The notes under the pieces were generated by a model, which was not told the origin of the DNA, did not search any database, and saw only the letters and a program-made list of their open reading frames with translations. A stretch of DNA of 64,000 nt from assembly GCA_021324635.1 (NCBI GenBank), contig JAJPIS010000073.1, forward strand, positions 1 to 64,000. The letters are read 5' to 3'. Below, in pieces: positions 37,824-53,321 of the stretch. The DNA comes from Gemmatimonadota bacterium. GTDB lineage: Bacteria > Gemmatimonadota > Gemmatimonadetes > Gemmatimonadales > Gemmatimonadaceae. Within the stretch, counting starts at the first letter, position 1. Every line of letters starts with the position of its first letter. The position numbers were made by a program, and so were the translations under genes.

Positions 37824-38186
37824 GTGAGTCACACGGTTCTGATTTGCGACGACGCGATCTTCATGCGCACGATGGTCGGCGACATCCTCCAGCAAGCCGG
37901 ATTCGATATCGTCGGTGAGGCCGAGACCGGCGTGCAGGCGGTCGAGAAGTACCGGCAACTGCGCCCGGATCTGGTGACGATGGATATCGTCATGCCCGAC
38001 ATGGGCGGCATCGACGCCGTGCGTGAGATCACGAAGTTCGATCCGCAGGCCAAGATCCTCATGTGCAGCGCGATGGGACAGCAGGCGCTGGTCGTCGAGG
38101 CGATTCAGGCCGGCGCGCGGGACTTCGTCGTCAAGCCGTTTCAGCCGAGCCGCGTGCTGGAAGCCGTCCAGCGCGTGCTCGGGTAG
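37824..38186 (+). CDS. cheY: CheY-like single-domain response regulator
   Basis: This 120-residue protein is a receiver domain only. The acidic pocket is CDDA near the N-terminus, the phosphorylated residue is D54 in VTMDIVMPDMGG, the switch Ser is in MCSAMGQ, and the conserved Lys is in FVVKPF. CheA phosphorylates it and CheC or autolysis dephosphorylates it. In this cluster its target may be the motility or MglA machinery and not only a flagellar switch. GTG 37824 has CTGGAG 7 bases upstream. Confidence 0.95.
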   Translation: MSHTVLICDDAIFMRTMVGDILQQAGFDIVGEAETGVQAVEKYRQLRPDLVTMDIVMPDMGGIDAVREITKFDPQAKILMCSAMGQQALVVEAIQAGARDFVVKPFQPSRVLEAVQRVLG

Positions 38187-38241
38187 CCCGGGCCTCACCG
38201 CCGCGACGCCCGCGGCCTCCGAGCGCCCCGGCGCCGCCCCC

Positions 38242-40425
38242 GTGGACCCTGCGCGGTACGCCGAGCTGTTCCTGACGGAGAGTCGGGAGCATCTGTCGGC
38301 CATCAATCAAGCCCTCCTCGAGCTCGAGCGGGCCGCGCGCGCGGGCGCGAAGGGGGGGCGGACCGGAGCACGGGCGGCGGGTGGGGACACCGACGTGCAG
38401 GCGGCGGTGGGATCGCTGTTCCGCGCCGTGCACACCGTCAAGGGGATGAGCGCCACCATGGGGTACTCGGCCGTGGCGGCGCTCTCGCACGAGATGGAAG
38501 CACTTCTGGACGGCGTGCGGTCCGCCGGCCGTGACGTCGACGCGCCGCTCATGGACCTGCTGTTCGAGGCGGCCGACGCGCTCGAATCCTCGATCGAGCG
38601 GGCCGTCTCGGATGAGGAGAGCGACCCCCGGGCCGCCGATGTGACGCAACGGCTCCGCGATCTCCTGACGCCGGCCCACCCCCCCGCGGCGCCCGCACCC
38701 GAGTCCTCGGGCGATCGGCCGACGCGTCGCCGCAAGACCGCCACGGGTCGGACGCGTCGGAGCCGCGCCCACCCGGAGCCGGACGCGCCGCACGGTGGTC
38801 GGGCGGAGGCGAATCGGCCGGAGATGAGTCGCCCGCCCGCCGCCCCGGGAACCGCGATCCGGATCCTCTTCGACCCCGACGCCCCCCTCCGGGGGGCGCG
38901 GGCGGCGATGGCGGTGGCCCGGGCGCACGAGCTGGGCGAGGTGACGGCTGTCCAGCCTGCGCCCGAGCGCTTCGCGGATCCCGAGTTCGGGCACGAGCTC
39001 TGGCTTCGCGTGGTGACGACCGCGCCGACGCCGGAGATCGAGCGCCGGCTCGGCGGCGTGGGGGACGTGACCCGCGTCGACGTCGAGCGAGATGAGACCA
39101 CGCCTGCCGCCCGCGAGTCGAGCGCGCCCCGCGAGCCCAGCGCGACCCGCGGGTCCAACGGGCAGCCGGCGGCCCCCGGCGGGTCGGCATCGCTCCAGGT
39201 CGATCATGGCCCGAAGGCGCGGCACGTCCGCATCGACCTGCGGCGGCTGGACGCGCTCATGAACCTGATCGGCGAGCTGGTGATCGCCCGCGGACGCCTG
39301 GTCGAGCTGACGGCCGGGAGCGACGATGCGGCGCTGGTCGAGACGATGGATCTCGCGTCTCGCCTGATCGGCGACCTGCAAGATGAGATCATGACCTGCC
39401 GGATGGTCCCGGTCTGGCAGGTCTTCGATCGATTCCCGCGCCTCGTGCGCGATGCCGCCCGGGCCCTGGGCAAGCAGGTTGAGCTCGAGGTGGAGGGGAA
39501 GGAGATCGAGCTCGATCGGTCGATGCTCGACGAGATCGGCGATCCGATCGTGCACCTGCTCCGCAACGCCCTGGATCACGGGATCGAGAGCCCGGAGGAA
39601 CGAGCGGCGTCCGGGAAGCCGCCCGAAGGCCGGCTGACGCTGAGCGCGATGCGGGACCGGTCGGCCGTCCTCATCCGCGTCGCCGACGACGGCCGGGGGA
39701 TCGACCGCGGCAAAGTGCTCGCGCGGGCGCTCGACGCCGGGCTCGTCGATGCCGGCACGACGGCGCTCACGGACGAGGAAGTCATCCACCTCATCGCCCG
39801 GCCCGGCTTCACGACCGCCGAGCGCGTGACCAGTCTCTCCGGCCGGGGCGTCGGGATCGACGCCGTCCAGGCGCGCGTCCGGGCCCTGGGCGGCGCGGTC
39901 GACATCAGGAGCGTACCGGGCCAGGGCACGACGGTCACGGCGCGCCTCCCCCTCACGCTCGCGATCATGCGCGCCCTGCTGGCCCGCGTCGCGGGTGAGA
40001 CCTACGCCTTCCCGATGGCCCACATCGACGAGACGGTGGCGGTCACGGGGGCGTCGTTCGCCGCTGTCCGCGGCCAGCCGGTCCTGCTCCTTCGGGGGGA
40101 GGCGGTCCCGTACGTCCAGCTCCGAAGTCTGATCGGGCTGGGATCCGCGGCCGCCCCGGACGGCAGCGGGGGTAACGGCGCGGCTTACGGCACCGGACCC
40201 GGGTCGGGGGCCGGCGGGCCGGCCGCTGACCCGGAGCAGCACATCCTGGTCGTCGAATCGGCGGGCCGGCGCGCCGCGATCGCCGTCGACGAGCTCACCG
40301 GCCAGCAGGACATCGTGGTCAAACAGTTCGATGCCGCCCGGGGCGGGGCGGCGCTGTTCAGCGGCGCGACGATCCTCGGGGACGGAGCGCCCGCCTTGAT
40401 CGTCGATGTAAGCACCCTCTGTTGA
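38242..40425 (+). CDS. cheA: Chemotaxis histidine kinase CheA
   Basis: This 727-residue kinase has the standard domain order. P1 carries the phosphorylated H64 in AVHTVKGMSATMGY. A Pro/Arg-rich linker leads to a P2-like domain (about 205-290) and the P3 dimerisation helices (LMNLIGELVIARGRL). The P4 ATPase has HLLRNALDHGIE and DDGRGID, and the P5 CheW-like end finishes VDELTGQQDIVVKQF. GTG 38242 is chosen because the P1 domain begins at once; the longer frame runs antiphase through cheY. It starts 55 bases after cheY. Confidence 0.95.
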   Translation: MDPARYAELFLTESREHLSAINQALLELERAARAGAKGGRTGARAAGGDTDVQAAVGSLFRAVHTVKGMSATMGYSAVAALSHEMEALLDGVRSAGRDVDAPLMDLLFEAADALESSIERAVSDEESDPRAADVTQRLRDLLTPAHPPAAPAPESSGDRPTRRRKTATGRTRRSRAHPEPDAPHGGRAEANRPEMSRPPAAPGTAIRILFDPDAPLRGARAAMAVARAHELGEVTAVQPAPERFADPEFGHELWLRVVTTAPTPEIERRLGGVGDVTRVDVERDETTPAARESSAPREPSATRGSNGQPAAPGGSASLQVDHGPKARHVRIDLRRLDALMNLIGELVIARGRLVELTAGSDDAALVETMDLASRLIGDLQDEIMTCRMVPVWQVFDRFPRLVRDAARALGKQVELEVEGKEIELDRSMLDEIGDPIVHLLRNALDHGIESPEERAASGKPPEGRLTLSAMRDRSAVLIRVADDGRGIDRGKVLARALDAGLVDAGTTALTDEEVIHLIARPGFTTAERVTSLSGRGVGIDAVQARVRALGGAVDIRSVPGQGTTVTARLPLTLAIMRALLARVAGETYAFPMAHIDETVAVTGASFAAVRGQPVLLLRGEAVPYVQLRSLIGLGSAAAPDGSGGNGAAYGTGPGSGAGGPAADPEQHILVVESAGRRAAIAVDELTGQQDIVVKQFDAARGGAALFSGATILGDGAPALIVDVSTLC

Positions 40426-40454
40426 TCCCGACGAACCGGCCCAACCACCCAGCC

Positions 40455-41075
40455 ATGGAAGACATCCGCTCGCTCAAGGCGAACCAGCTCGATGCGCTTC
40501 GCGAGGTGGCCAACATCGGTGCCGGCCACGCGGCGACCGCCCTGTCCCAGATGATCGGCGGGACGATCATGATCAGCGTGCCGACGATCAACATCGCCCG
40601 GCTGGAGGACGTGCCGCCGCAGGTCTCGGCGCCGGAGGAGCCGGTGGCCGCCGTGCTCATGAACATGCTGGGTGATCTGACCGGTCGGACACTCCTGGTG
40701 CTCCCACGGCAGACGGCCGTGAAGCTGGCGGGCATCATGTTGCGGCGGCAGATGGGCTCGGACTCCGAGCTCGGCCAGGTCGAGCAATCGGCCATCAAGG
40801 AAGCCGGGAACATCCTGAGCGGCGCCTACCTCAATGCGCTCAGTGACTTCATGGGACTGATGCTCCTTCCCTCGCCGCCGAGCCTCGCCGTCGACATGTC
40901 GAGCGCCGTCCTGACGACGGCCTACCTCCAGTTCGGCACCGACCGGGATTACGTCTTCTGCGTCGAGACCGAGTTCTTCATGCAGGAAGTCGGCGAGCAT
41001 CTGCGCGGCTTCTTCCTGCTCCTGCCGGACGTCGCCTCGCTCCACGCGATCCTGCGCGCGGTGCGCGTCGCCTAG
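40455..41075 (+). CDS. cheC: CheC-family CheY-P phosphatase
   Basis: This 206-residue protein has two copies of the CheC active-site helix: LREVANIGAGHAATALSQ near residue 15 and SAIKEAGNILSGAYLNALSD near 115, each with the Glu and Asn that attack phospho-CheY. In Bacillus and Thermotoga, CheC works with CheD, which is also present in this cluster. ATG 40455 gives the normal N-terminus; a TTG at 40422 overlapping the cheA stop is an alternative that would add 11 residues. Confidence 0.92.
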   Translation: MEDIRSLKANQLDALREVANIGAGHAATALSQMIGGTIMISVPTINIARLEDVPPQVSAPEEPVAAVLMNMLGDLTGRTLLVLPRQTAVKLAGIMLRRQMGSDSELGQVEQSAIKEAGNILSGAYLNALSDFMGLMLLPSPPSLAVDMSSAVLTTAYLQFGTDRDYVFCVETEFFMQEVGEHLRGFFLLLPDVASLHAILRAVRVA

Positions 41076-41090
41076 CGGCGGAGCGGCACG

Positions 41091-43940
41091 GTGGGCGACG
41101 GGACGGCACCCAGCGCGACCAGTCTCGTCTCGGAGCGGGACCGGGAGGTCTTGCGCTCCTTCACGCGACGAATCGACCCCTCGGACGCGGGCGCCCACAA
41201 CAACCTCGGCGTCCTCTACTACCACAAGGGACTCTACGAGGAGGCGGTCGGGGCATTCACGCGTGCCCTCGAGCTGGACCCGAAGATGCAGGTCGCACAA
41301 CGCAACCTCGAGGTCGCGTACTTCGGGACGGGATACTACGACCGGCGCGTCGCCCTGCTCCACGATCAGCTCCGCACGTCTCCGGGCGATCGCGAGGCAC
41401 GCTGGGAGCTCGGCCGGGCCTACAGCCTGCTCGGGCGCAACGCCGAGGCGGTCGCCGAGTTCACGGCGCTGCTCGAGCATCACCCAGACGATGTCGGGGC
41501 GCTGGTGCAGCTCGGGCTGGCGGAAAAGGCGTCCGGGGACCTGGAAGAGGCCCAACGGTGGTTCGAGCGGGCGCTCGCGCTCGATCCGCAGAGCCCGATC
41601 GTCCAGTTCTACATCGGGGAGGTCCTGTACAACCGCGGCCTGAACGAGCAGGCGCTGGCGGCGCTGGAGCGGGCGATCGCCCTGCATCCCGACCACCCGG
41701 ACGCCCATTACCTGATGGGGTTCGTCCTGGGCGACATGGGCCGGCACGAAGAGGCGCAGCAGGCGACGAAGCGGGCCGTGCACCTGAATCCCACGCTGTC
41801 GCGGGCGCAGACGAACCTCTCGCTCGACCAATCCCCGCTGGGCCGTGCCGGCCTCGCCGCGACGCCACCCCTCTCCGCGCCCGCGCCCGTGCCGGAGCGA
41901 CACGCATCGGGGATCATGGGCGTCGCCGACGAGGGAGCGCTCGCGCACTTCAACCTGGGTCTCGCCTTCCGCCAGAAGGGGTACTACGCCGAGGCCCTCC
42001 GCGAGTACGCGCTCGCCCTCGAGCGTGGGGAGGAACGGAGCCTCGTCCAGCAGGCGATCGCCGAAGTCCACCTGCTCCGCAAGGATGTCGCCGGTGCGGT
42101 CGCGGCCTACGACGCCCTGCTCGCCGAGCAGCCGGCCAGCCCGAAGCTCTGGAACGAGCGTGGCGTCGCGCTCCACCAGGACGGGCGCTACTCCGACGCG
42201 GCCGCGAGCTATCGGCGTGCGATCGACGCCGACCCGAACTACGCCCTGGCGCACAACAACGTGGGGGTCGCGCAGTACCACGCGGGCGACATCCCGGCGG
42301 CGAACGCCGCGTTCGAGCGCGCGCTCGACCTGGCGCCCACGTTCGTGCAGGCCCGGCTCAACCTCGCGCTGCTCCACTTCAAGTCGAAGCGACTCCAGTC
42401 GAGCCTCGAGGCGTACCGTCGCGTGCTCACCGACGCGCCCGAGCACCCCGGCGCCTGGAACGGCGTCGGCCTCGTCCTCACCGAGCTCCGGCGATTCGAA
42501 GAAGCGCGCAACGCCTTCGCCCGCGCGGTGCAGGGCCGGCCGGACTATGCCGAAGCCCACTACAATCTGAGCTTCGCGCTCTCCAACCTGGGCGACTTCG
42601 AGGGCGCGCTGCGCGAGACCAAGCGGGCGCTCGAGCTCGATCCGTACTACGTCCCGCAGAAGTTCGAGCTCGCGATCGACTTCCAGTACGAGCACCCCGA
42701 GCTCTCGATCGTCCCCGATCTCGTCGGGAGCGCGCAGCCGACCGATGCCGGCGTGACCGAGTTCGCGTTCGATACGGCGCTCCTCGACTCGCTGTTCAGC
42801 GAGTTGTCGCCCGGCGGGGGAGCGGCACCTGGCGCCGCCGAGCCGCCGCCGGCCGCCGATCCGGATCCGTACGGCATCGCGGTCGACTATCTCGCCAAGG
42901 GGCTGTACGAGCGGGCCGCGGCCGAGGCGAGTCGCTCGCTCCAGCGCGGCGCCGATCGGGCCCAGGGCCTCACGTTGCTGGGCGACATCTTCGCGCGCCA
43001 GGGGCTGCACGGCGAGGCCCTCGAGCGGTACCGCGACGCGCGGCGGACCGACGGGCGACCGTTGCGCGCGCTCATCGGAGAAGTGCGGGCCCTCGTGGCC
43101 CTCGGCCAATCGGCGGACGCGCAGCCGGCCGCGGAGACCCTGCTCGCCGAGGGAGCGACCGATGCCGACGCGCTGGTCGTGGTTGCCTCCGCCCGGACAT
43201 CGGCCGGAGACCCGGCCGGCGCACTGGCGGTGCTCGAGCATGCCCGCGCCATTGCCCCCGGCCGGGCGGACGTCCTGCACGCGATCGGCGACGTGAACCG
43301 CCGGATGGGCGACGACGCGCGGGCGCTCGAGGCCTACCGGGACGCCCTGGCGATCGACCCCGACCGCGCCGTCGTCCGGTACGAGCTGGCGACGCTGTTG
43401 GTCGGCGCCGGGCGCGCGGCGGAAGCCGAAGCCGAGTTGCTCGAGGCGCTCGATCGGGTGCCGACCTATGCCGCCGCGACGCTCGCGCTCGCGCGGCTCT
43501 GGCGCACCCTCGGCCGCACGCAGGCGGCCATGGGGCTGCTCATCGACCTGCTCGAGCGCGACGTCTCGCACGTGCCGGCGTTGCTCGCGCTCGGCGAGCT
43601 GCTCTTCGACGACGGCCGGCGCCGCGACGCGGCGCGCGTCTTCGCACGACTCCTGATCGTCCAGCCGGGGCATCCGGGCGCGCTGTACTACGAGGGGGCG
43701 GCGCTCGCCGAGCAGCACCGGTACCGAGACGCGATCGAGCGGTGGGAGGCGGTGATTGCGGCCGATCCCGAGGGGCCCTTTGGCGGTCGCGCCCGCCGCG
43801 ATTGTCGGACGGCTCGCGATCTCGCGGCGATCTTCGTCCGCCGCGCCGCGGCCGCCCCGGTGCCGTTCGGGTCGGCGGCCCTCCGCGCGGCCACCGCGCC
43901 CGCGGCGCCGTCGCACGCCGGGTTGCGGAGGGCCGGCTGA
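41091..43940 (+). CDS. Giant TPR protein of the chemosensory cluster
   Basis: This 949-residue protein is almost wholly tetratricopeptide repeats, in two blocks (about 30-250 and 280-530) and a third block (about 600-900), divided by Pro/Ala-rich linkers. Typical repeats are AHNNLGVLYYHKGLYEEAVG and AHYNLSFALSNLGDFEGALR. There is no signal peptide or membrane segment, so it is cytoplasmic. TPR arrays hold protein complexes together; here the likely partners are products of the same operon. The start is GTG 41091, 15 bases after cheC, and the stop overlaps the next ATG. Confidence 0.85.
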   Translation: MGDGTAPSATSLVSERDREVLRSFTRRIDPSDAGAHNNLGVLYYHKGLYEEAVGAFTRALELDPKMQVAQRNLEVAYFGTGYYDRRVALLHDQLRTSPGDREARWELGRAYSLLGRNAEAVAEFTALLEHHPDDVGALVQLGLAEKASGDLEEAQRWFERALALDPQSPIVQFYIGEVLYNRGLNEQALAALERAIALHPDHPDAHYLMGFVLGDMGRHEEAQQATKRAVHLNPTLSRAQTNLSLDQSPLGRAGLAATPPLSAPAPVPERHASGIMGVADEGALAHFNLGLAFRQKGYYAEALREYALALERGEERSLVQQAIAEVHLLRKDVAGAVAAYDALLAEQPASPKLWNERGVALHQDGRYSDAAASYRRAIDADPNYALAHNNVGVAQYHAGDIPAANAAFERALDLAPTFVQARLNLALLHFKSKRLQSSLEAYRRVLTDAPEHPGAWNGVGLVLTELRRFEEARNAFARAVQGRPDYAEAHYNLSFALSNLGDFEGALRETKRALELDPYYVPQKFELAIDFQYEHPELSIVPDLVGSAQPTDAGVTEFAFDTALLDSLFSELSPGGGAAPGAAEPPPAADPDPYGIAVDYLAKGLYERAAAEASRSLQRGADRAQGLTLLGDIFARQGLHGEALERYRDARRTDGRPLRALIGEVRALVALGQSADAQPAAETLLAEGATDADALVVVASARTSAGDPAGALAVLEHARAIAPGRADVLHAIGDVNRRMGDDARALEAYRDALAIDPDRAVVRYELATLLVGAGRAAEAEAELLEALDRVPTYAAATLALARLWRTLGRTQAAMGLLIDLLERDVSHVPALLALGELLFDDGRRRDAARVFARLLIVQPGHPGALYYEGAALAEQHRYRDAIERWEAVIAADPEGPFGGRARRDCRTARDLAAIFVRRAAAAPVPFGSAALRAATAPAAPSHAGLRRAG

Positions 43941-45094
43941 TGCCGATCGAGGGGGCCCTCCGCGAGCTCGGGATCCACGACGTCTTCCAGATGCTGGACC
44001 TCAGCCGGAAGACCGGCGCCCTCCGGGTCACGTCGGAGCTGCGCGACAACGAGGGAACGGTGCTCTTCGACCACGGCCGGGTCGTGTCCGCGAGCGTCCG
44101 GACCAACCCCGCGCCGCTCGGTACGCTCCTCGTGCGCGCGGGTCGCGTGACCGAGGCCGAGCTGGCCGAGGCGCGCGCGCGGCAGGGCGGCCCGGACCGG
44201 CGGCGGCTGGGGGATATCCTCCTGTCAATGGGTGTGCTCGGCTCGCGAGAGCTCGAGCATCACGTTCGGCTGCAAATCGAGACCGTCGTCTTCGAGCTCA
44301 TGTCGTGGCGCGACGGATTCTTCTCCTTCCAGGAATGCGACATCGACCCGACCGTGCTGGAAGCGGCGGTCTCCGTGTCGACCGAATCGCTCCTCATGGA
44401 GGGCGCGCGCCGCATCGATGAATGGTCGCGCATCGGCCACAAGGTCCCGAGCCTCGATGTCGTCCCGGTGCTGGCCACCGTGGCCGACGACCACGCCACG
44501 CTGCTCGACCTGCTCCCCAGCGAATGGGAAGTGCTGGCCCGCATCGATGGGGACACCGACCTGCGCGGGATCGCGACCTCCCTCGGGCGCAGCGAGTTCG
44601 ATGTGGCGAAGGTCGTCTACGGGCTGCTGACCACGGGTGTGGTGCAACTGCGCGACGCGGGGGCCCGGAACGGCAGTCGCTCTCCGGGAGCGGCGGACGC
44701 GGACCCGCGGCGGTTGCTCGACACGGCGCGGGCGGCGCTGGCCGCGGGGCGGCTCGACGACGCCCTGACGGCGGCGCGCCTCGCCATCGGCGCGGAGCCC
44801 GGCGGGATCGACGCGCGGCTGACGGCGGCCCGTGCCCTGCGCCGGCTCGGGCGCTTCGGCGATGCCGCCGAGGAGCTCCGTCGGGCCGCCGAGATCGCGC
44901 CGGAGCACCCGGGGATCGCCCTGGAGCTCGGGTTCACCGCCCTCAGCAAGGGCGACCTGGACTCGACCGTCGCGAGCTGGAAACGCTACCTCGGCATCGC
45001 GCCGTCCACGGCCCCCGAGGCCCAGACCGTCCGCGATGCGCTGGCGTCCGCCTGCCACCTGCGTGGGCTCCTCGAGGCGGTGCCCGTTGGCTGA
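43940..45094 (+). CDS. PATAN (DUF4388) domain protein with C-terminal TPR repeats
   Basis: This 384-residue protein begins with a PATAN/DUF4388 domain (about 1-110: GALRELGIHDVFQMLDLSRK, then GTVLFDHGRVVSAS). A second helical region about 110-245 (LGDILLSMGVL, FELMSWRDGFFSFQE) is shared with the protein at 48663. Two or three TPR repeats end it (about 255-365). In other bacteria PATAN domains occur in response regulators tied to surface motility and pili. Here it may couple CheA output to MglA. It overlaps both neighbours by a few bases. Confidence 0.82.
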   Translation: MPIEGALRELGIHDVFQMLDLSRKTGALRVTSELRDNEGTVLFDHGRVVSASVRTNPAPLGTLLVRAGRVTEAELAEARARQGGPDRRRLGDILLSMGVLGSRELEHHVRLQIETVVFELMSWRDGFFSFQECDIDPTVLEAAVSVSTESLLMEGARRIDEWSRIGHKVPSLDVVPVLATVADDHATLLDLLPSEWEVLARIDGDTDLRGIATSLGRSEFDVAKVVYGLLTTGVVQLRDAGARNGSRSPGAADADPRRLLDTARAALAAGRLDDALTAARLAIGAEPGGIDARLTAARALRRLGRFGDAAEELRRAAEIAPEHPGIALELGFTALSKGDLDSTVASWKRYLGIAPSTAPEAQTVRDALASACHLRGLLEAVPVG

Positions 45095-46070
45095 CGACAT
45101 CGAGCGCTGGAGCGGCGAGCTCGCGCGGGATCCGGCGAGCATGGTCTTCATCCCGCTGGCCGACACGCTCCGCCGGCGGGGGCAGCTCGACCTCGCGCTC
45201 AGAGTGGCGACGCGTGGACTCGCGCGGCATCCCTACGATGGCGATGCGCACGATCTGCTCGCCCGCATCTGGATCGATCGCGACGACCCGCAGCGCGCGA
45301 TGGACGAATGGGCGATGGCGTTGCGCTGCGCGCCCGGCCACCCGGGGGCCCTCAAGGGGATGGGCTTCGCGGCGTTCCGGGCGGGCCGGACGGCCGAGGC
45401 GGTGGAGTACCTCGAGCAGGCCGCGGCCGCCGATCCGGGCGATCGGTCGATTCGCGTCGCTCTCGACCGCGTCCGCGAGGCGGCGGCGACGACGGCGCAC
45501 GCCCCCGAGGACCGGGCCCTCGCCTCGCCGCCACCCGGGGCGGTGACCGACGACGAGCCCGCGGAGGCCGGGCACACCGGAACCGGGGATGCGGCGTCCA
45601 CCGCCGGCGACGCGGGCATCGAGGGCAACGGGTCGGACGAGGATCCGTCGCCGGCGGCCGATCGCGTGCTGGCCGGGGAAGATCCGCGCGCGCTGTTCAC
45701 CGATCTACTCACGGAGCCCGAGCTGGCGGCGCTCCTGCTCGACGTCGGGGGGCTCGTGCTCGCAGGCCACTACGTGCTGGCGGACGGCCGCGACGTGGCC
45801 CAGGACGTTGGCGGCGCCCTCACCGGCGTGAGCGACGAGGCCCGACGGGCGATGCGGCACCTGGGACTGGGGGCCTGGTCGTCGCTCATCTTCGAGACCG
45901 ATATCGCGGCCATGGCGCTCGCACCGCTGGGGGCGGGGGAGGCGGACCAGGGGACCGCGCTTGTCGCCGCCGGTCGGTCGGTGCCGCTCGGGCTCGTGCG
46001 CCGGCTCGTCCGTCGGGTCGCGGCGCGCGGCGCGGCGTGGCTCGCCGCCTCGGACGGAGCGGGGCCGTGA
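45087..46070 (+). CDS. TPR plus roadblock/LC7-like domain protein
   Basis: This 327-residue protein has TPR repeats at about 10-135 (DTLRRRGQLDLALRVATRGL), an acidic disordered linker (about 140-200), and a C-terminal roadblock/LC7-like domain (about 205-325: LLLDVGGLVLAGHYVLADGR). It is the first of three successive genes with this fold just before mglA. Roadblock proteins regulate small GTPases, for example MglB on MglA. TTG 45087 is used because it overlaps the upstream stop codon and no ATG or GTG lies nearby; this rare start deserves care. Confidence 0.72.
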   Translation: MADDIERWSGELARDPASMVFIPLADTLRRRGQLDLALRVATRGLARHPYDGDAHDLLARIWIDRDDPQRAMDEWAMALRCAPGHPGALKGMGFAAFRAGRTAEAVEYLEQAAAADPGDRSIRVALDRVREAAATTAHAPEDRALASPPPGAVTDDEPAEAGHTGTGDAASTAGDAGIEGNGSDEDPSPAADRVLAGEDPRALFTDLLTEPELAALLLDVGGLVLAGHYVLADGRDVAQDVGGALTGVSDEARRAMRHLGLGAWSSLIFETDIAAMALAPLGAGEADQGTALVAAGRSVPLGLVRRLVRRVAARGAAWLAASDGAGP

Positions 46071-46414
46071 GCACGCCGTTCGATGACGTGCTGGAGGGGC
46101 TCGTCCGCCAGCGCGGCGTGCGAGGCGGGCTGATCGTGAGCGAGCGTGACGGCATCCTCGTGGACGCGCACGTGCAGATCGGCGTGCGCGGGCCGGTCAT
46201 TGCCGCGCTCGCGGCGTCGATGTACCGGAAGGCGCGCCTGTCGGCCGGTGCGGCGGGGCTCGGGGATGTCGTCTACGTCGAGCTGGTGGCGGCGCGTGGG
46301 CGGCTGTGCATGGCGGGGCGCGAAGACCTGCTGATCGTTCTCGTGACCGACGCGCGAGCGAGCGTCGCCCTCCTGCGCGCGGCCGTGCTGCGGGCGACCG
46401 AGGTGTTGCAATGA
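46067..46414 (+). CDS. Roadblock/LC7 domain protein
   Basis: This 115-residue protein is a lone roadblock/LC7 domain (FDDVLEGLVRQRGVRGGLIV, SERDGILVDAHVQIG, then EDLLIVLVTDARASVALLR). Such proteins dimerise and act as GTPase regulators or scaffolds. GTG 46067 overlaps the previous stop (GTGA) and its stop overlaps the next ATG. It might be part of an MglB-like complex with its neighbours. Confidence 0.78.
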   Translation: MSTPFDDVLEGLVRQRGVRGGLIVSERDGILVDAHVQIGVRGPVIAALAASMYRKARLSAGAAGLGDVVYVELVAARGRLCMAGREDLLIVLVTDARASVALLRAAVLRATEVLQ

Positions 46415-46881
46415 CCCTCGCCGTCGTGGAGCACTGGATCGAGGAGCCGTTGCGTCACTTCCTCGATGACGCGCAGGTGCTGCTCGCGCTGGTGCTGACG
46501 CCGAGCGGCCAGGTGCTGGCGCAGCACGGCTTCACCCGGGCGGTCGACGTCATGTCGGCCTGCGCGCTCGCGGCTGCCATCCAGGCTTCATCGGCGGAGC
46601 TCGGTCGGCAACTTCAGGACCGGCCGTTCGGGGCCCTGCATCACGCCGGGTGCGCGCGTCAGCTCTTTCTCGCGAGCGCCGACACGCCGCGGGGCCCGCT
46701 GCTCGTCGTCAGCGTGTTCGACGACGCGACCTCGATCGGGCTCGTCCAACTGTACTTCGAGGAGTTGCGGGGCCGCCTCGCGGCGAGCGCACCGCCGGCC
46801 CATGCCACGCCGCCCGCCCCTCTCGCCGACACGTTCGAGCGGGACCTCGATCGCAACCTCGCGCTTCTTTTCCGCAGGTAG
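46411..46881 (+). CDS. Roadblock/LC7 protein, MglB-like candidate
   Basis: This 156-residue protein lies 5 bases before mglA, the place where mglB sits in Myxococcus. Its fold is roadblock-like (LLALVLTPSGQVLAQHGFTR, then GPLLVVSVFDDATSIGLVQL), followed by a Pro-rich linker and a C-terminal helix (FERDLDRNLALLFRR). MglB is the GTPase-activating partner of MglA and is of similar length. The identity is supported by position and fold, not by close sequence that I can verify. Confidence 0.72.
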   Translation: MTLAVVEHWIEEPLRHFLDDAQVLLALVLTPSGQVLAQHGFTRAVDVMSACALAAAIQASSAELGRQLQDRPFGALHHAGCARQLFLASADTPRGPLLVVSVFDDATSIGLVQLYFEELRGRLAASAPPAHATPPAPLADTFERDLDRNLALLFRR

Positions 46882-46886
46882 CCGCC

Positions 46887-47519
46887 GTGCCGCTCGTCAA
46901 CTACGCCACGCGTGAGATCACGTGCAAGATCGTCTACTACGGGCCGGGGCGGTCCGGCAAGACGACGAACCTGCACTACATCTACGGTCAGGTCCCGAGC
47001 GATCGGAAGGGGCGCATGGTGTCGTTGGCGACCCAGACGGACCGGACGCTCTTCTTCGACTTCCTGCCGCTCGATCTCGGGACGATCTCCGGGTTCACGA
47101 CGAAGATGCAGCTCTACACGGTGCCCGGGCAGGTGTACTACCAGGCCACGCGTCGCCTCGTGCTCCAGGGCGCGGACGGCGTCGTGTTCGTGGCCGACAG
47201 TCAGCGGCGTCAGCTCGACGAGAACGTGGAAAGCCTCCAGGATCTGCACAGCAACCTGGCGGAGCACGGCATCGATGCCCGGACGGTGCCGGTCGTCTTG
47301 CAGTACAACAAGCAGAATCTTCCGCCGGAGCTCATTCTCGATGTGCCGACGCTCGAGGACGTGCTCAACTTCCGCAACGTGCCCTCCTACGCGGCCGACG
47401 CCCTGCACGGGGACGGCGTGTTCGAGACACTGCGGGGCATCTCGGAGCTCGTGCTCCGGCGGTTGAGCGGATCGGGTGTGGCTGCGGCCGCCGGGGCTGG
47501 CGGCCAGCATCCGCGCTGA
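46887..47519 (+). CDS. mglA: MglA polarity GTPase
   Basis: This 210-residue Ras-like GTPase closely follows Myxococcus MglA from its first residues (LVNYATREITCKIVYYGPG). The P-loop is GPGRSGKT (19-26), switch regions follow (QTDRTLFFDFLPLDLG, YTVPGQVYYQATRR), and QYNKQNLP is the base-recognition motif. MglA-GTP marks the leading cell pole and controls gliding and type IV pili, and its direction is set by a chemosensory pathway (Frz) in Myxococcus. Finding it inside a che operon suggests the same logic. GTG 46887 fits. Confidence 0.94.
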   Translation: MPLVNYATREITCKIVYYGPGRSGKTTNLHYIYGQVPSDRKGRMVSLATQTDRTLFFDFLPLDLGTISGFTTKMQLYTVPGQVYYQATRRLVLQGADGVVFVADSQRRQLDENVESLQDLHSNLAEHGIDARTVPVVLQYNKQNLPPELILDVPTLEDVLNFRNVPSYAADALHGDGVFETLRGISELVLRRLSGSGVAAAAGAGGQHPR

Positions 47520-47532
47520 GACGGGGCGCCCG

Positions 47533-48663
47533 GTGCCCGCGGACGGCCGGTACCGCTTCGAGACGTACGTCGTCGGCCCCACGAACCGCGGCGCGACCGA
47601 GATGGCGCGCGCGGTCGCCGAGGCGCCCGGCGCGTCGAGCAACCCCCTCGTGATCTGCGGAGCCCCCGGCGTCGGCAAGACCCACCTGCTCGGCGCCATC
47701 GCCGCCCACGCGCTCGCCATCCATCCGACGCTGGCCGTCGTGTCGGTCGCTGCCGAGGCGCTCGCCCGGCCGGCGCTGGCCAGCCCTGACGGTGCCCGCC
47801 ATGCGTTCACCGCCCGGTGCCTGGGCGCCGACCTCCTCATCGTCGACGACCTTCAGGCGCTGGCGGGGCGACCCGAGGCACAGGCCGACCTGCTGCGAAT
47901 CTGTCGCGGACTGCACCAGGCCGGGCGCCAGATCGTGGTCGCATGCGATCGGCCACTCGCGGCTCTCCCGGGGATGGACCCGTCCCTCGTGGAGTGCCTG
48001 TCCAGCGGAACGACGGCGACCATCGGGGCACCGGAGATCGCTCCCCTGGCCGGTGCACGGCCGCGCGTGAGCGCGCCCGCGGCGGCGAGCGCGGCGAGCG
48101 CGGCGAGCGCGGCCACCGCGGCCAGCGCGGCCACCGGACCGGGTGTGGCGGCGCCCGGCGCGCCGCGACGTGGCCGGCAGCCAGGCCGGAACGGGATGGG
48201 ATACCAGGATTTCGTCTCCGACGTCGCCGATGCCGTGGCGCGCCATGTCGAGCCGTGGCGAAGCCGGCTCGCGGAAGCCGTCGCGGTATGGGCCGCGAAC
48301 GGGTACGAAGTCCGCGTGCTCGAGCGCGGACTCCGATGCCAGACCGACCCTGGCACCGATGCGCTCCTTCGCGCCTACGGGGCCGCGGTCGAGCACCTGC
48401 GCGCGCTGGAGGCGCAAGCCGAGGCCGACGGAACGCGAGTCGACGATCCCGCCGTGTTTCGAGATCCGGAGCGGGTGCAGGAAGCCGAGGCGGCCGTGGC
48501 TCGGACGGCCCGGCCGCCGGCCGCCCGGCCCGCGGCATCCCCGACGGGCGCGGCTGGCGTGAAGCCGCCCGCGCCCGACCTCGACCGGTACTTCCTCGAT
48601 CCCGAGAAGGTCGTGCTGGACTGGCCTGATCCGGCCGGCCGCCTGATCGAGGAGTGGCGCTGA
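47533..48663 (+). CDS. DnaA-like AAA+ ATPase without DNA-binding domain
   Basis: This 376-residue protein begins with a domain close to DnaA domain III: YRFETYVVGPTNRGATEMAR, Walker A GAPGVGKTH (43-51) and Walker B LLIVDDLQAL (D105-D106). The sensor region (QIVVACDRPLAALPGM) follows DnaA, but the helix-turn-helix domain IV is absent. In its place are an Ala/Ser-rich linker (about 175-200), a helical domain (about 215-295: DFVSDVADAVARHVEPW) and a conserved-looking C-terminus (LDRYFLDPEKVVLDW). GTG 47533 starts the domain directly; GTG 47476 would overlap mglA. The role in this cluster is unknown. Confidence 0.8.
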   Translation: MPADGRYRFETYVVGPTNRGATEMARAVAEAPGASSNPLVICGAPGVGKTHLLGAIAAHALAIHPTLAVVSVAAEALARPALASPDGARHAFTARCLGADLLIVDDLQALAGRPEAQADLLRICRGLHQAGRQIVVACDRPLAALPGMDPSLVECLSSGTTATIGAPEIAPLAGARPRVSAPAAASAASAASAATAASAATGPGVAAPGAPRRGRQPGRNGMGYQDFVSDVADAVARHVEPWRSRLAEAVAVWAANGYEVRVLERGLRCQTDPGTDALLRAYGAAVEHLRALEAQAEADGTRVDDPAVFRDPERVQEAEAAVARTARPPAARPAASPTGAAGVKPPAPDLDRYFLDPEKVVLDWPDPAGRLIEEWR

Positions 48664-50288
48664 TGGCGATCCGCGGCAGTCTTCGGGAGGCGAGCCTTCC
48701 CGACGTGCTCCAGTTGCTGGCGATGGGCAAGAAGACGGGGTGCCTGAGCGTCACCCACCGGAGCAACTTCGGCTACATCTACTTCGAGCGTGGCCGCATC
48801 GCATATGCATCGATCGTCAATCGTCGGGACCGGTTGGGGGATCTGCTCGTCAACGCCGGGCTGGTCACGCGGGAGCAGCTGGAGATGGCCATCGAGGCGC
48901 AGCGGACGGAGCCCAATCGGCGGCTGGGCGATCTGCTCATCAGCCGGGGCATCGTGACGCGCGAGGCACTGCACGAGCAAGTGCGCGTCCAGATCGAGGA
49001 GGCGGTCTTCTCCCTCTTCACCTGGTCGCAGGGGACCTTCAACTTCGAGCCGGACATTCGGCCCGAGGACCAGGCCTTCATCGTCTCGATCAGCCCGGAG
49101 TCCTTGCTGCTGGAGGGGGCGCGGCGGGTCGACGAATGGGGCGTGATCGAGGAGACGATCCCGAGCTTCGACATCGTCTTCGAGGTCGACGCCGAGCGCG
49201 TCCGGCAGCACGGGGCGGCGCTCACGCCGGCCCAGGACCTGATCCTCGGCCTGCTCGACGGACGCCGCGACGTGCGGGCGCTCATCGACGAGTCGGGGCT
49301 CAGCGAGTTCGATGCCGGGAAGGCGCTCTGCGCGCTGGCCGCGGCCGGGATCGCGCGCCGCGTGGGTCGCACGCGGACCGAGCCGGAGGTCTCGGACGCC
49401 CGCGTCGAGGAGCACCGCAACCTCGGCGTCGCGTTCTACAAGACCGGGATGTTCGACGAGGCGCTCCGCGAGTTCCGGCGAGTGATGGAGCTGCGTCCCG
49501 CCGACGCCGCCGCGCCGTTCTACCTCGGGCTGGTGCTGATCCGCCAGGGGCAGTGGGCGGGGGCCGTCGAGGCCTACACGGCCGCGGCGGCATCGCCGGG
49601 CGCACACGCCGTCGTGCTGCACAACCTCGCCTTTGCCCTCGAGCGACTGGGACGCCTGGACGACGCGGCGGCCGTTCTGGACCAGGCGGCGGCGCGGGCC
49701 GGCGACGACCCGCGGGTCCGGACCTCGTTGGGGGCACTGGCCCTCCGTCGCGGCGAGGTACGGGATGCCGATGCCCTGCTGACCGCCGCCCGGCCGCTCT
49801 GGGGCACCCGCGCGCCCGCGCCGGCCTGGTTTCATTTCGCCGGGCTCGCGGCCGCGCTACTCGGCGACCTCGACCGGGCAGCGGCGATCCTCACGGAAGG
49901 CACGGCACGCCACCCGCGGGCCGCGGCGCTGCACAACAACCTCGCCGTGGTGCAGGAGCGCGTCGGCAGCTTCGGGGACGCCGCGGCGTCCCTGGAGCGT
50001 GCCCTCCAGGAAGACGCGACGGTCCCACAGGTGCACAAGAACACCGGTGACCTGGCGTACCGGACCGCGCGGTATGATGAGGCGCTGGACGCCTATGCGC
50101 GCGCGACGCGCATCAACCCGACACTCGGACCGGATGCGTTCCTGAGGATGGGCAACATTCGCTACCGCCGCGGAGAGGCCACGGAAGCGATCACCTGCTG
50201 GCAGTCGGCGCTCGCGCTCGATCCGACCAACGGGATCGCGCGCAGCAACATCGAGGCGGCGGAGCGCGCCGCACGGGCGCGGCCATGA
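48663..50288 (+). CDS. PATAN (DUF4388) domain protein with long TPR region
   Basis: This 541-residue protein repeats the design of the protein at 43940: a PATAN domain (about 1-105: GSLREASLPDVLQLLAMGKK), a shared middle region (RRLGDLLISRGIVTR, FSLFTWSQGTFNFEP, LLLEGARRVDEW), then about eight TPR repeats (245-535). The two are probably paralogues that assemble with different partners. It is cytoplasmic, with no signal peptide. ATG 48663 overlaps the upstream stop (TGATG); its stop overlaps cheR. Confidence 0.84.
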   Translation: MAIRGSLREASLPDVLQLLAMGKKTGCLSVTHRSNFGYIYFERGRIAYASIVNRRDRLGDLLVNAGLVTREQLEMAIEAQRTEPNRRLGDLLISRGIVTREALHEQVRVQIEEAVFSLFTWSQGTFNFEPDIRPEDQAFIVSISPESLLLEGARRVDEWGVIEETIPSFDIVFEVDAERVRQHGAALTPAQDLILGLLDGRRDVRALIDESGLSEFDAGKALCALAAAGIARRVGRTRTEPEVSDARVEEHRNLGVAFYKTGMFDEALREFRRVMELRPADAAAPFYLGLVLIRQGQWAGAVEAYTAAAASPGAHAVVLHNLAFALERLGRLDDAAAVLDQAAARAGDDPRVRTSLGALALRRGEVRDADALLTAARPLWGTRAPAPAWFHFAGLAAALLGDLDRAAAILTEGTARHPRAAALHNNLAVVQERVGSFGDAAASLERALQEDATVPQVHKNTGDLAYRTARYDEALDAYARATRINPTLGPDAFLRMGNIRYRRGEATEAITCWQSALALDPTNGIARSNIEAAERAARARP

Positions 50289-51112
50289 GCGGAACGCCGA
50301 GCGATGCGCTGGGCGACCAGGCGTTCGCCGATCTGCTCGCCAAGATCGCGCGCGACCGGCAGTTCCAATGCCGGAGCTACAAGGAGAAGTGCCTCCGCCG
50401 GCGCATCGCCGTCCGGCTCCGTGCGCGCGGCGTCGCGACCTACGGCGAGTATGCCGATCTACTCGACCGGGATGCGCGCGAGTACGACAAGCTGCTCGAC
50501 GCGCTCACCATCAACGTCACCAAGCTGTTCCGCAACTGGGAGACCTACGCCGCCATTCAGCGCCTCGTGGTACCGACCCTGTGGACGCTGCCGGCTCCGG
50601 CGCTGCACGTCTGGAGCGCGGGATGTGCCTCGGGCGAGGAGGCCTACTCACTCGCGATCCTCTTTCACCGCCACGCGACGGCCGCCGGCCAGGCGTCGAG
50701 CGTCAGTCGGGTGCGTGTCCTCGGCACCGACATCGACCGGGAAAGCCTCCTCGCCGCGGACCGCGCGAGCTACGGCGAGGCGGCCTTCGCCGACACCCCC
50801 GCCGAGATCCGTGACCGCTATTTCTCGCCGGGGCTGCCGGCGCAGCTCGATCCGTCGGTGCGGAGCCTCGTCCGCTTCGCGCGGCAGGACCTCATCCGGA
50901 CGGCGCCGCCGCCGGGGCAGCACCTGATCGCCTGCCGCAACGTGATCATCTATTTCGACCGCGAGACGCAGGAGGAGCTCTTCCAGCGCTTCCACGCGGC
51001 ACTCGTCCCGCGCGGGTTCCTCGTCCTCGGGAAAGTGGAGACGCTCCTGGGCGAGGCCCGCAATCGCTTCATCCCGGTCGATGCGCGCGAGCGCATCTTC
51101 CAGCGCGCATGA
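50285..51112 (+). CDS. cheR: CheR protein-glutamate methyltransferase
   Basis: This 275-residue enzyme methylates glutamates of chemoreceptors with S-adenosylmethionine. The N-terminal helical domain (FQCRSYKEKCLRRRIAVRLR) is followed by the SAM fold with WSAGCASGEEAYSLAI, LGTDIDRESL and HLIACRNVIIYFD. No receptor is coded in the window, so the substrate must be elsewhere in the genome, or could be a soluble protein. Start and stop overlap both neighbours by 4 bases. Confidence 0.94.
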   Translation: MSGTPSDALGDQAFADLLAKIARDRQFQCRSYKEKCLRRRIAVRLRARGVATYGEYADLLDRDAREYDKLLDALTINVTKLFRNWETYAAIQRLVVPTLWTLPAPALHVWSAGCASGEEAYSLAILFHRHATAAGQASSVSRVRVLGTDIDRESLLAADRASYGEAAFADTPAEIRDRYFSPGLPAQLDPSVRSLVRFARQDLIRTAPPPGQHLIACRNVIIYFDRETQEELFQRFHAALVPRGFLVLGKVETLLGEARNRFIPVDARERIFQRA

Positions 51113-51591
51113 GCGACCAGATCCGCGTCCGGGTCGCGGACTACGCGGTCGCCCGCGGCTCGACCGTCATCGCGACGTTGGGGCTCGGCTCCTGTGTCGC
51201 GATCGCCCTCTACGACGCGGGGGCGCGCGTGGGCGGGTTGGCGCACGTGCTGCTGCCGAGCGAGAGCATGTCGCGTGACCGCGGCAATCGCGCGAAGTTC
51301 CCGTCGACTGCCGTGCCGCTGCTGCTCGAGGAGATGGAGAAGCTCGGCGCCCAGGGGCCGTTCACGGCCAAGCTCGCCGGCGGGGCCAGCATGTTCGGCG
51401 CCCTGCTCCCCGCCGGCGGGATCAACATGGGACTCCGCAACGTCGAGTCGGCGCGGCGCGCGTTGACCCAGGCCGGGGTTGCGATCGTCGCGCAGGACAT
51501 CGGCGGCGGCTACGGCCGCAGCGTCTTTCTGCACGTCGCCGACGGTCGGGTCGTCATCAAATCCTTGGCGAATGGCGAGCACGTTCTCTGA
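51109..51591 (+). CDS. cheD: CheD receptor glutamine deamidase
   Basis: This 160-residue enzyme deamidates receptor glutamines and binds CheC, whose phosphatase activity it increases. The catalytic pair is C29 (LGLGSCVAIAL) and H46 (GLAHVLLPS), and the family motifs AKLAGGASMF and NVESARRAL follow. Its presence with cheC, cheB and cheR gives the full Bacillus/Thermotoga-type adaptation set. Confidence 0.95.
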   Translation: MSDQIRVRVADYAVARGSTVIATLGLGSCVAIALYDAGARVGGLAHVLLPSESMSRDRGNRAKFPSTAVPLLLEEMEKLGAQGPFTAKLAGGASMFGALLPAGGINMGLRNVESARRALTQAGVAIVAQDIGGGYGRSVFLHVADGRVVIKSLANGEHVL

Positions 51592-52717
51592 CCCCGGGGG
51601 TCGCCGCCGCGCCCCACGCACGGTGCTGGTGGTCGACGACAGCGCCTTCATGCGGCGCGTGGTGAGCGACATCGTGATGTCGGTCCCGGAGGAATTTCGC
51701 GTCGTCGGCACGGCCCGGGACGGCCTCGATGCGCTGCGGCAGATCCACGCCCTGGCGCCCGACATCGTCACGCTCGACATCGAGATGCCCGAGCTCGACG
51801 GGCTCCAGGCACTCGGCTACATCATGTCGGAGATGCCGCGGCCGGTCGTGATGTTGAGTGCCGCCGGCGGGCCCGACGCGGCCACCCTCACGCTCCGCGC
51901 GCTGGAGCTCGGGGCGGTGGATTTCGTCCGCAAGCCGACGGGGCCGGTGCAGGCGGATTTTTCGCCGGTGCGCGACCGGTTGCTCTCCGCGCTCCGCGGC
52001 GCCGCGGTCATGAACCTGGGTGGCGTGCGCGTCCTCGCCCGGCCGTCGCTCGCCGGGGGTGCGCACGGGCGGGATGGCCCGATCGAGGGGCGCGAGGAGC
52101 CGCTCCACAGCGGCGCGCACTGGGCAGTGGTGATCGCGGCGTCCACCGGCGGACCGCGCGCGCTGACGGAGATCATCCCGCACCTGCCGGTCGATCTCGG
52201 GGCGGCGGTGCTCGTCGTGCAGCACATGCCCGGCGGGTTCACCGCTAGCCTGGCCCAGCGCCTGGATCAGATGAGCGTCCTCCGGGTCACCGAGGCCGTC
52301 GACCAGGAGCCGGTGCTCGACAACCGCGTCTATATCGCACGCGGGGGCGCCCACATGCGCGTCCACTCGAGCGGCGGCCGGGTTCGACTGGCGTTGGACG
52401 GCAGTCCTGCGATCTGGGGCGTCCGTCCGGCTGCCGACCCACTGTTTCGATCCGCCGCCCAGACCTTCGGCGAGCGTCTGGTCGGCGTCGTCCTGACGGG
52501 GATGGGGCGCGACGGGGCCGAGGGCCTCCGGGCCGTCCGAGACGCCGGGGGGCAGGGGGTCGTCCAAGATCAGATGACCTCGATCATTTATGGGATGCCC
52601 CATGCGGCGCTCACGACTGCCGGGGCGGATCGGGTTGCTGCCCTCCCCGCGGTCGCCACCGCCATCGTGGAACTGCTCGAGCTGGGGCGCCGACAGACCG
52701 CCGGGGCGGGGCGCTGA
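51572..52717 (+). CDS. cheB: CheB receptor methylesterase with receiver domain
   Basis: This 381-residue enzyme has a receiver domain (D69 in VTLDIEMPELDG) and a C-terminal methylesterase domain with the triad S191 (AASTGGPRAL), H218 (VVQHMPGGF) and D314 (TGMGRDGAEGL). Phosphorylation by CheA activates it to remove methyl groups added by CheR. ATG 51572 lies 20 bases inside cheD, an unusually large overlap in this cluster. Confidence 0.95.
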   Translation: MASTFSDPGGRRRAPRTVLVVDDSAFMRRVVSDIVMSVPEEFRVVGTARDGLDALRQIHALAPDIVTLDIEMPELDGLQALGYIMSEMPRPVVMLSAAGGPDAATLTLRALELGAVDFVRKPTGPVQADFSPVRDRLLSALRGAAVMNLGGVRVLARPSLAGGAHGRDGPIEGREEPLHSGAHWAVVIAASTGGPRALTEIIPHLPVDLGAAVLVVQHMPGGFTASLAQRLDQMSVLRVTEAVDQEPVLDNRVYIARGGAHMRVHSSGGRVRLALDGSPAIWGVRPAADPLFRSAAQTFGERLVGVVLTGMGRDGAEGLRAVRDAGGQGVVQDQMTSIIYGMPHAALTTAGADRVAALPAVATAIVELLELGRRQTAGAGR

Positions 52718-52724
52718 GGCTCCA

Positions 52725-53321
52725 ATGGCCGGCGTCCCCCACGTGAGCCCGTCGAGCGACGAGTGCGGCTCGGGCGTCGCCGCGCCCGTCTCGGCCTCCG
52801 CCGGCGTGCCGGCGCCTGGCGAGGACGTGCTCGTCTTCCGGGCCGGCGCCGAATCGTTCGCCATCGCGGCGAGCGCGGTCGAGGCGATCGTCGAATTGCC
52901 GTCCCTTCAGCCGCTCCCCGGGATGCCGGCCAGGATGCTCGGGATCGCGAAACTCCGAGGTCGACTCGTGCCCGTGTACTCGCCCGCCAGCGTGCTCAAT
53001 GTCTCGCTCGTCGATCCCGGGGCCGCCCTGATCGCGCGGGTGCGGGCCCGGCGAGGCGGGAGCGCGGTCGCCGTCGGCGCCGCCGATGACCCGGCGGCGG
53101 ATCCGGCCGGGGATCTCGGCCGGCGCGTCGCCGTCGCGATCGCCGGGGCGACCGGCGTCGTGACCTACGATCCGATGGCGTGGAGCGGCGTGGGCGGGGC
53201 GGCGCCGCGGAGCGGACTCGTGCGGGGTGTCGCGACGATCGAGCGGTCGTTGACCACGCTGCTCGACGCGGGGGTCTTCCTGTCCGAGTGCACGACCTCC
53301 GGGAACCCGGAACCGGCCTGA
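52725..53321 (+). CDS. CheW-like protein (second of three)
   Basis: This 198-residue protein has a divergent CheW domain (VLVFRAGAESFAIAASAVEA, then MLGIAKLRGRLVPVYSPASV), with an Ala/Asp-rich insert at about 110-135 (VGAADDPAADPAGDLGRR) not seen in ordinary CheW. It might be an adaptor for a different receptor or scaffold. ATG 52725 is 7 bases after cheB, and its stop overlaps the next ATG. Confidence 0.8.
   Translation: MAGVPHVSPSSDECGSGVAAPVSASAGVPAPGEDVLVFRAGAESFAIAASAVEAIVELPSLQPLPGMPARMLGIAKLRGRLVPVYSPASVLNVSLVDPGAALIARVRARRGGSAVAVGAADDPAADPAGDLGRRVAVAIAGATGVVTYDPMAWSGVGGAAPRSGLVRGVATIERSLTTLLDAGVFLSECTTSGNPEPA

Follow-up and report, generated by a model that had tools for sequence, protein, structure and literature searches.

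The window considered here, that is, the entire stretch of 64,000 nucleotides that was analysed, carries a block of chemosensory and motility genes on the forward strand. It begins with cheW and continues with cheA (38023..40425), cheC (40422..41075), a gene for the large TPR protein of the cluster (41091..43940), a gene for a second PATAN (DUF4388)-TPR protein (43937..45094; PF14332, E 3.6e-30), a gene for a protein with a C-terminal Roadblock/LC7-like, MglB-like region (45308..46414; PF03259, E 0.0015, under the Pfam cut-off) and the cluster-type Ras-like GTPase gene mglA (46881..47519; phmmer E 4.8e-71 to Myxococcus xanthus MglA structures). These are followed by the ATPase gene that is the subject of this report, a gene for a PATAN (DUF4388)-MshEN-TPR protein (48663..50288; PF14332, E 2e-40; NF053729, 54.6 bits, cut-off 38), cheR (50285..51112), cheD (51109..51591), cheB (51479..52717 as its longest ORF), a cheW-like gene (52590..53321) and a TPR gene. 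The assignment of the two flanking genes as mglA and PATAN-TPR in a previous sequence-only reading of this DNA is confirmed by these matches. The C-terminus of the Roadblock-like protein is kept in many relatives, its long N-terminal part being poorly conserved.

The MshEN-type c-di-GMP-binding motif in the PATAN-TPR neighbour (48663-50288) scores over the curated cut-off and suggests that c-di-GMP may provide an input to the MglA cluster. Among the four genomes with a minimal form of the ATPase gene described below, an MshEN pattern was present in the PATAN-TPR protein of one (L205) and found nothing in L203, L204 and L206 (the last ending at a contig edge), an absence that serves as a lead, as the regular expression is too strict for counts and misses the motif in many tandem genomes. 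A second mglA lies after a Roadblock/MglB-like gene elsewhere in the same genome (L207, about 8437-9753, contig C52); the two are probably the canonical mglBA pair of the phylum.

The ATPase gene (47533-48663, forward strand), classified here as a reduced DnaA-type ATPase/adaptor gene, encodes a product of 376 aa. Its GTG start lies 14 nt past the mglA stop, and its own stop shares the sequence TGATG with the start codon (ATG) of the PATAN-TPR gene. The GTG at 47533 was favoured over a longer ORF from 47476 because relatives begin equally relative to an RFxxxVVG motif, and the ORF is not a chance one, since all inspected clusters of relatives carry this gene at the corresponding place.

The N-terminal part of the protein is an AAA1 core corresponding to DnaA domain IIIa (residues 1-165; 47533..48027; AF2 pLDDT about 90), which was recognized by PF00308 (Bac_DnaA) with an E of 8.6e-32 and 111 bits versus a Pfam cut-off of 23; in the numbering of the longer ORF, the match covers residues 24-179. 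Walker A (residues 43-50, 47659..47682, GAPGVGKT in the context GAPGVGKTH), Walker B (LIVDD, residues 102-106, 47836..47850, in the context LLIVDDLQ) and the Asp-Arg of the sensor 1 region (residues 139-140, 47947..47952) are all intact. It had been proposed that this part follows DnaA domain III, including both Walker motifs, which holds for the core but not for the remainder of the domain: the lid (IIIb) and sensor 2 are missing, and box VII (47983..48009) is degenerate, with Ser and Cys at the positions of DnaA Arg281 and Arg285, the latter being the arginine finger. A low-complexity Ala/Ser linker (residues 169-221; 48037..48195; pLDDT under 50), visible as an alignment gap, occupies the place of the AAA1 lid and sensor 2 of relatives. 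It is followed by a helical middle domain (residues 224-325; 48202..48507; pLDDT about 90), defined by alignment A2 and a hallmark of the family, and by the conserved C-terminal tail YFLDPEKVVLDWPDPAGRLIEEWR (48589..48660). The tail, which had been singled out as distinctive, is conserved across the family and is the sole such motif in the window.

The AlphaFold2 model shows an AAA+ core, disorder in the linker (169-221), helices again at 224-325, which form a domain, and no order in the tail. The core superimposes on DnaA domain III with a VIA-align Z of 25.9 and an rmsd of 1.7 A over 168 residues, and the AAA domain filled the structural match list of a fold search with the whole model. No Pfam model for domain IV matched the window protein, whose corresponding region is a different helical bundle in the AF2 model plus the tail, in agreement with the earlier view that the DNA-binding domain is absent. 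The middle domain matched profile A2 of the family with an E of 1.3e-36 (the window sequence being among the members of that profile), whereas searches of the same region against Pfam gave only weak coiled-coil-like matches (ABC_tran_CTD, best E 7e-4), and its profile gave chance-level matches only against PDB sequences.

Comparison with family models for DnaA, Hda and the helicase loaders placed the protein closest to DnaA and gave no sign of a cryptic domain IV. The best NCBIfam model was TIGR00362 DnaA (129 bits, below its curated cut-off of 343.9). Hda uses its arginine finger to trigger hydrolysis of DnaA-bound ATP, and it shares with the window protein a DnaA-type AAA+ core and the lack of a DNA-binding domain; however, the likeness to Hda suggested previously fails on family score (TIGR03420, 49.9 bits, cut-off 194.8; 84 bits for AAA1 of an intact relative), and the gene context differs and the window protein has no arginine finger. 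Membership in the DnaC/DnaI/IstB group was likewise excluded, its scores being far under those for DnaA: the top loader-type match in NCBIfam was IstB (37.6 bits, cut-off 200), and PF01695 IstB_IS21 reached 27.4 bits in Pfam, barely over its cut-off of 24.1.

The window protein belongs, in reduced form, to a Gemmatimonadota family that extends across the phylum. Most of its relatives have about 650 aa (range about 600-690) and carry two DnaA-type ATPase domains, AAA1 and AAA2, each with its lid; a helical middle domain of about 100 aa separates the two, and the tail stands at the C-terminus. The helical region once thought to replace domain IV is therefore real, but it is a family hallmark that lies between two ATPase domains in most relatives. 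For a tandem relative, the NCBIfam DnaA model gave 266 bits for AAA1 and 241 bits for AAA2 versus 84 and 73 bits with the Hda model, and the middle domain received no NCBIfam score. The top PDB match of the family profile was Bacillus subtilis DnaA domain III (E 1.8e-82), so that DnaA is the closest match by profile, PDB sequence and structure. AAA2 is absent from the window protein and both genus mates, and the AAA1 lid is absent from the window protein and one of the mates (G002). An assembly artefact or frameshift as the origin of the short form was rejected, since separate assemblies of the two genus mates also lack AAA2 and one of them lacks the lid.

The middle domain was detected in 176/298 sampled genomes of the phylum, representing 86/119 genera. 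Outside the order, one family group (f5) has the tandem form with a degenerate AAA2, another (f4) the tandem form, and two more (f6 and f9) AAA1 only. A profile scan with the middle domain plus AAA2 found family members in Gemmatimonadota only, other loci being single-domain, ordinary DnaAs. With a loose prefilter, the phylum reached via an acidobacterial locus gave no member in 199 genomes, and the one reached via a deltaproteobacterial locus gave one weak partial match in 198 genomes.

Reduction of the protein has occurred in several lineages, giving a series of forms with two ATPase domains, one, one without lid, none and tail only. G018 has a degenerate AAA1 followed by middle domain and tail, and G017 has middle domain and tail only. 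Four further genomes (G006, G008, G009 and G114) possess cluster-type mglA and lack AAA and middle domains; in each of them, an ORF of about 70-80 codons between mglA and the PATAN-TPR gene encodes the first middle-domain helix and the tail. When the 1085 six-frame fragments of those loci were ranked with HMMs of the head and of the tail, both put these four core ORFs at the top and well apart from the rest (E at most 0.0016 vs 1.8 for the next fragment with the head HMM, and at most 4e-4 vs 0.36 with the tail HMM). The core consensus comprises an amphipathic helix, EFxxFLxDV, and a tail, EKVVWxWPDxxxRLIEELR. In a set of 41 genomes, cluster-type mglA was present in 19/20 genomes with the middle domain and 4/21 without it, and those four all encode the helix-plus-tail core in the slot. 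In G008 and G114, mglA, core and PATAN-TPR gene occur together and che genes were not found at the locus; the Roadblock-like protein was not detected in any of the four minimal-core genomes. The existence of the core alone in four genomes and the reduced forms in G017 and G018 indicate that the tail is the constant part and the ATPase the removable one. In all groups the tail closes the protein or nearly does so, and within the genus it has diverged less than the other parts (71% vs 46-49%).

The gene order cheA-cheC-TPR-PATAN-mglA-[ATPase gene]-PATAN/TPR-cheR-cheD-cheB is common to relatives across the order, with losses at the edges. At all cluster loci inspected, the ATPase gene directly precedes the PATAN-TPR gene, and with one exception it also follows mglA. 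That exception, G005 (L038), retains a tandem ATPase gene without cluster-type mglA and has one of the most divergent tails; as a single case, it fits the adaptor account given below. The block occurs in genomes with pilT but without flagellar FlhA. The genome of the window likewise has pilT-family ATPases over cut-off and no match to FlhA, on which ground a flagellar system as the output was rejected. This combination makes type IV pili or another form of surface motility a likelier output than flagella.

Taking these data together, we propose that the family is a Gemmatimonadota-specific adaptor of the MglA/chemosensory operon with a DnaA-derived, ATP-controlled switch, and that the window member is a reduced form of it, with a probability of about 0.55. 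The earlier idea that a DnaA-type AAA+ had been recruited to signalling or polar assembly gains support from the conserved gene block and from the evolution of the family. In this proposal, helix and tail, the constant part, probably bind the products of the neighbouring genes, that is, MglA and/or the PATAN-TPR protein. The latter is an attractive predicted partner for the tail, given the terminal or near-terminal position of the tail and the overlap between the two genes; co-occurrence and operon position imply a shared function in the broad sense only. In most species, the middle domain and one or two DnaA-derived ATPase modules would form an ATP-controlled oligomerisation switch that assembles in a manner similar to head-to-tail DnaA, but without DNA. 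Presentation of the tail would then depend on the ATP or oligomer state, and so would an MglA-dependent polar type IV pilus or surface-motility output. The family itself, its architecture, the gene order, the lost residues and the repeated reduction are observed, and from them we infer the binding partners, the ATP switch and the motility output.

A residue audit of AAA1 and AAA2 by alignment, with residue roles taken from PMC5742627, bears on how such a switch may work. Since the sequences come from one phylum and partly related genomes, none of the following counts represent independent events. The Walker A Lys of AAA1 is present in 39/39 and 26/26 sequences, and Walker A and B of this domain are kept nearly everywhere. 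The filament residues of AAA2 are also well preserved (Arg227 in 37/39, Arg281 and Arg285 in 39/39). In the other (divergent) families, Walker A and B of AAA2 are lost in most members, the Walker A Lys remaining in just 3/18, while Arg281, the finger Arg285 and both H/B residues are found in 18/18. The simplest reading of these patterns is a division of labour, in which AAA1 would hold ATP and the arginine finger of AAA2, from the same or the next molecule, would sense it or trigger its hydrolysis. The roles may not be strictly divided, given that ATP-site residues are still present in AAA2 of most order members. As the AF2 pTM of about 0.5 does not fix how the two AAA domains lie relative to each other, an intramolecular finger contact between them is a guess. 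The arginine finger and sensor 2 (Arg334) are present in most relatives, the window protein having a Cys and a gap, respectively. Because both box VII arginines are replaced (by Ser and Cys) and sensor 2 is missing, the window protein is predicted not to hydrolyse ATP in the usual manner; it should bind ATP but not undergo canonical polymerisation. In this species, the protein may thus be a nucleotide-binding remnant that acts mainly via its middle domain and tail.

A more specific version, which we regard as less likely than not and advance tentatively, is that the family as a whole is a DNA-free, DnaA-derived tandem ATPase serving as an ATP switch or polymer in MglA polarity throughout the phylum, with AAA1 as the putative holder of ATP and AAA2 as the finger donor.

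The tree of the AAA+ domains resolved AAA1 as a clade of its own (100/100) and AAA2 as another (100/99), both apart from DnaA sequences, and leaves the root position and the order of duplication unsettled. The full DnaA of the same genome is on another contig (C94). A second DnaA-like gene of this genome (L002, 1489-2571; C31:16556-17035 region) encodes 360 aa with box VII and a domain IV-like C-terminus but no N-terminal domain I, and the tree places it with Gemmatimonadota DnaA; in both of these proteins, the C-terminal region is recognisable by eye as domain IV. Window AAA1 lies inside the AAA1 clade, where it groups with the genus mates (85/85); its branch is long, measuring 1.67 vs 0.13 and 0.40 for them. 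Such divergence, together with the loss of lid, finger, sensor 2 and AAA2 and the complete loss of the ATPase in other lineages, would be expected if the ATPase of the window lineage were a decaying relic with no present function and the middle domain and tail alone did the work. Omega-like ratios for pairs involving the window, of which only the ranking is usable because synonymous changes are near saturation, point the same way, AAA1 having the highest values (0.39-0.47) followed by the PATAN-TPR protein (0.19-0.25) and MglA (0.11-0.13). However, Walker A and B are intact in the window protein and the ratio is still below 1, so that the core is under selection, and the genus mate G002 retains both Walker motifs after loss of the lid. 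The AAA1 core is constrained, albeit less than its neighbours, and a functionless relic seems rather unlikely.

A third possibility is that the protein couples replication to polarity, by contacting DnaA in a mixed filament or as an Hda-like trigger, or by contacting ssDNA, and relays the replication state to MglA. The domain is close to that of DnaA, with B. subtilis DnaA domain III as its top PDB match, and AAA2 of relatives retains the filament residues of DnaA along with those for ssDNA. The latter are the H/B-motif positions Val211 and Arg245 of DnaA, which are involved in ssDNA binding (PMC5742627) and are kept in AAA2 (Ile/Val in 38/39, Arg in 36/39), whereas they are mostly replaced in AAA1 (His in 33/39, Glu in 36/39). 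Against this, domains I and IV are absent, the window protein has neither AAA2 nor a finger and cannot act like Hda, several lineages have dropped the ATPase yet retain the tail, and the gene context is motility and chemosensory. The link between replication state and cell polarity that had been raised from the sequence is therefore unsupported, and we consider such a coupler quite improbable. Finally, a DnaC/IstB-like loader that remodels or places a partner (e.g., a pilus ATPase or a part of the chemoreceptor array) rather than acting as a switchable scaffold is very improbable. Helicase loaders do belong to the initiator-clade AAA+ proteins, and weak DnaC/DnaI/IstB matches exist, but the DnaA scores are much higher, the scan of the cluster proteins reported no model of a pilus ATPase, and the missing finger argues against active remodelling by the window type.

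The adaptor with an ATP-controlled switch, which remains our preferred reading, may be compared with several known systems. DnaA domain III shares the AAA+ fold, Walker A/B and sensor 1 with the window protein and, in addition, the lid, box VII, arginine finger and sensor 2 with the relatives. Unlike DnaA, the family lacks domains I, II and IV, often has two ATPase domains per chain, lacks ssDNA-contact residues in AAA1 and is encoded in an mglA/che operon. Two AAA+ domains per chain are also found in type II AAA+ proteins such as p97/Cdc48, which Foldseek lists after DnaA for the tandem model; however, both domains of the family are of DnaA type, AAA2 is a pseudo-ATPase in one family group, and the whole-chain rmsd of about 20 A indicates that single domains match only. 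With regard to the pathway, the MglA module of Myxococcus (MglA, MglB, RomR/RomX, Frz and SgmX) resembles the present cluster in combining MglA with Roadblock-like and chemosensory proteins, and MglA-GTP works there via the TPR protein SgmX (PMC7519303). In contrast to the ATPase gene inside the mglA operon described here, the papers searched showed no component of AAA+ or DnaA-like type. PATAN genes near mglA and group 1 MglA in Gemmatimonadetes were reported in 2014, with no mention of DnaA (PMC4316618).

No published report linking a DnaA-like AAA+ to MglA or to Gemmatimonadota motility was found in the open-access literature, and what is new is the architecture and the pathway in which this known family of ATPases is found. 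The established tasks of DnaA-type ATPases are to initiate replication or to regulate DnaA. In the present family, by contrast, the ATPase of DnaA has been doubled without its DNA-binding part, fixed in a polarity operon phylum-wide and then trimmed stepwise in several lineages. Tail, mglA and PATAN-TPR gene make up a minimal module for polarity in Gemmatimonadota, whose surface motility seems to have received little study, and the proteins of the natural reduction series lend themselves to the question of what MglA signalling gains from the ATPase. If the more specific, tandem-ATPase version is true in a stronger form, the protein would also sense the state of DnaA or ssDNA and couple replication to polarity; if true as stated, it would give DnaA-type initiator AAA+ proteins a role outside replication.
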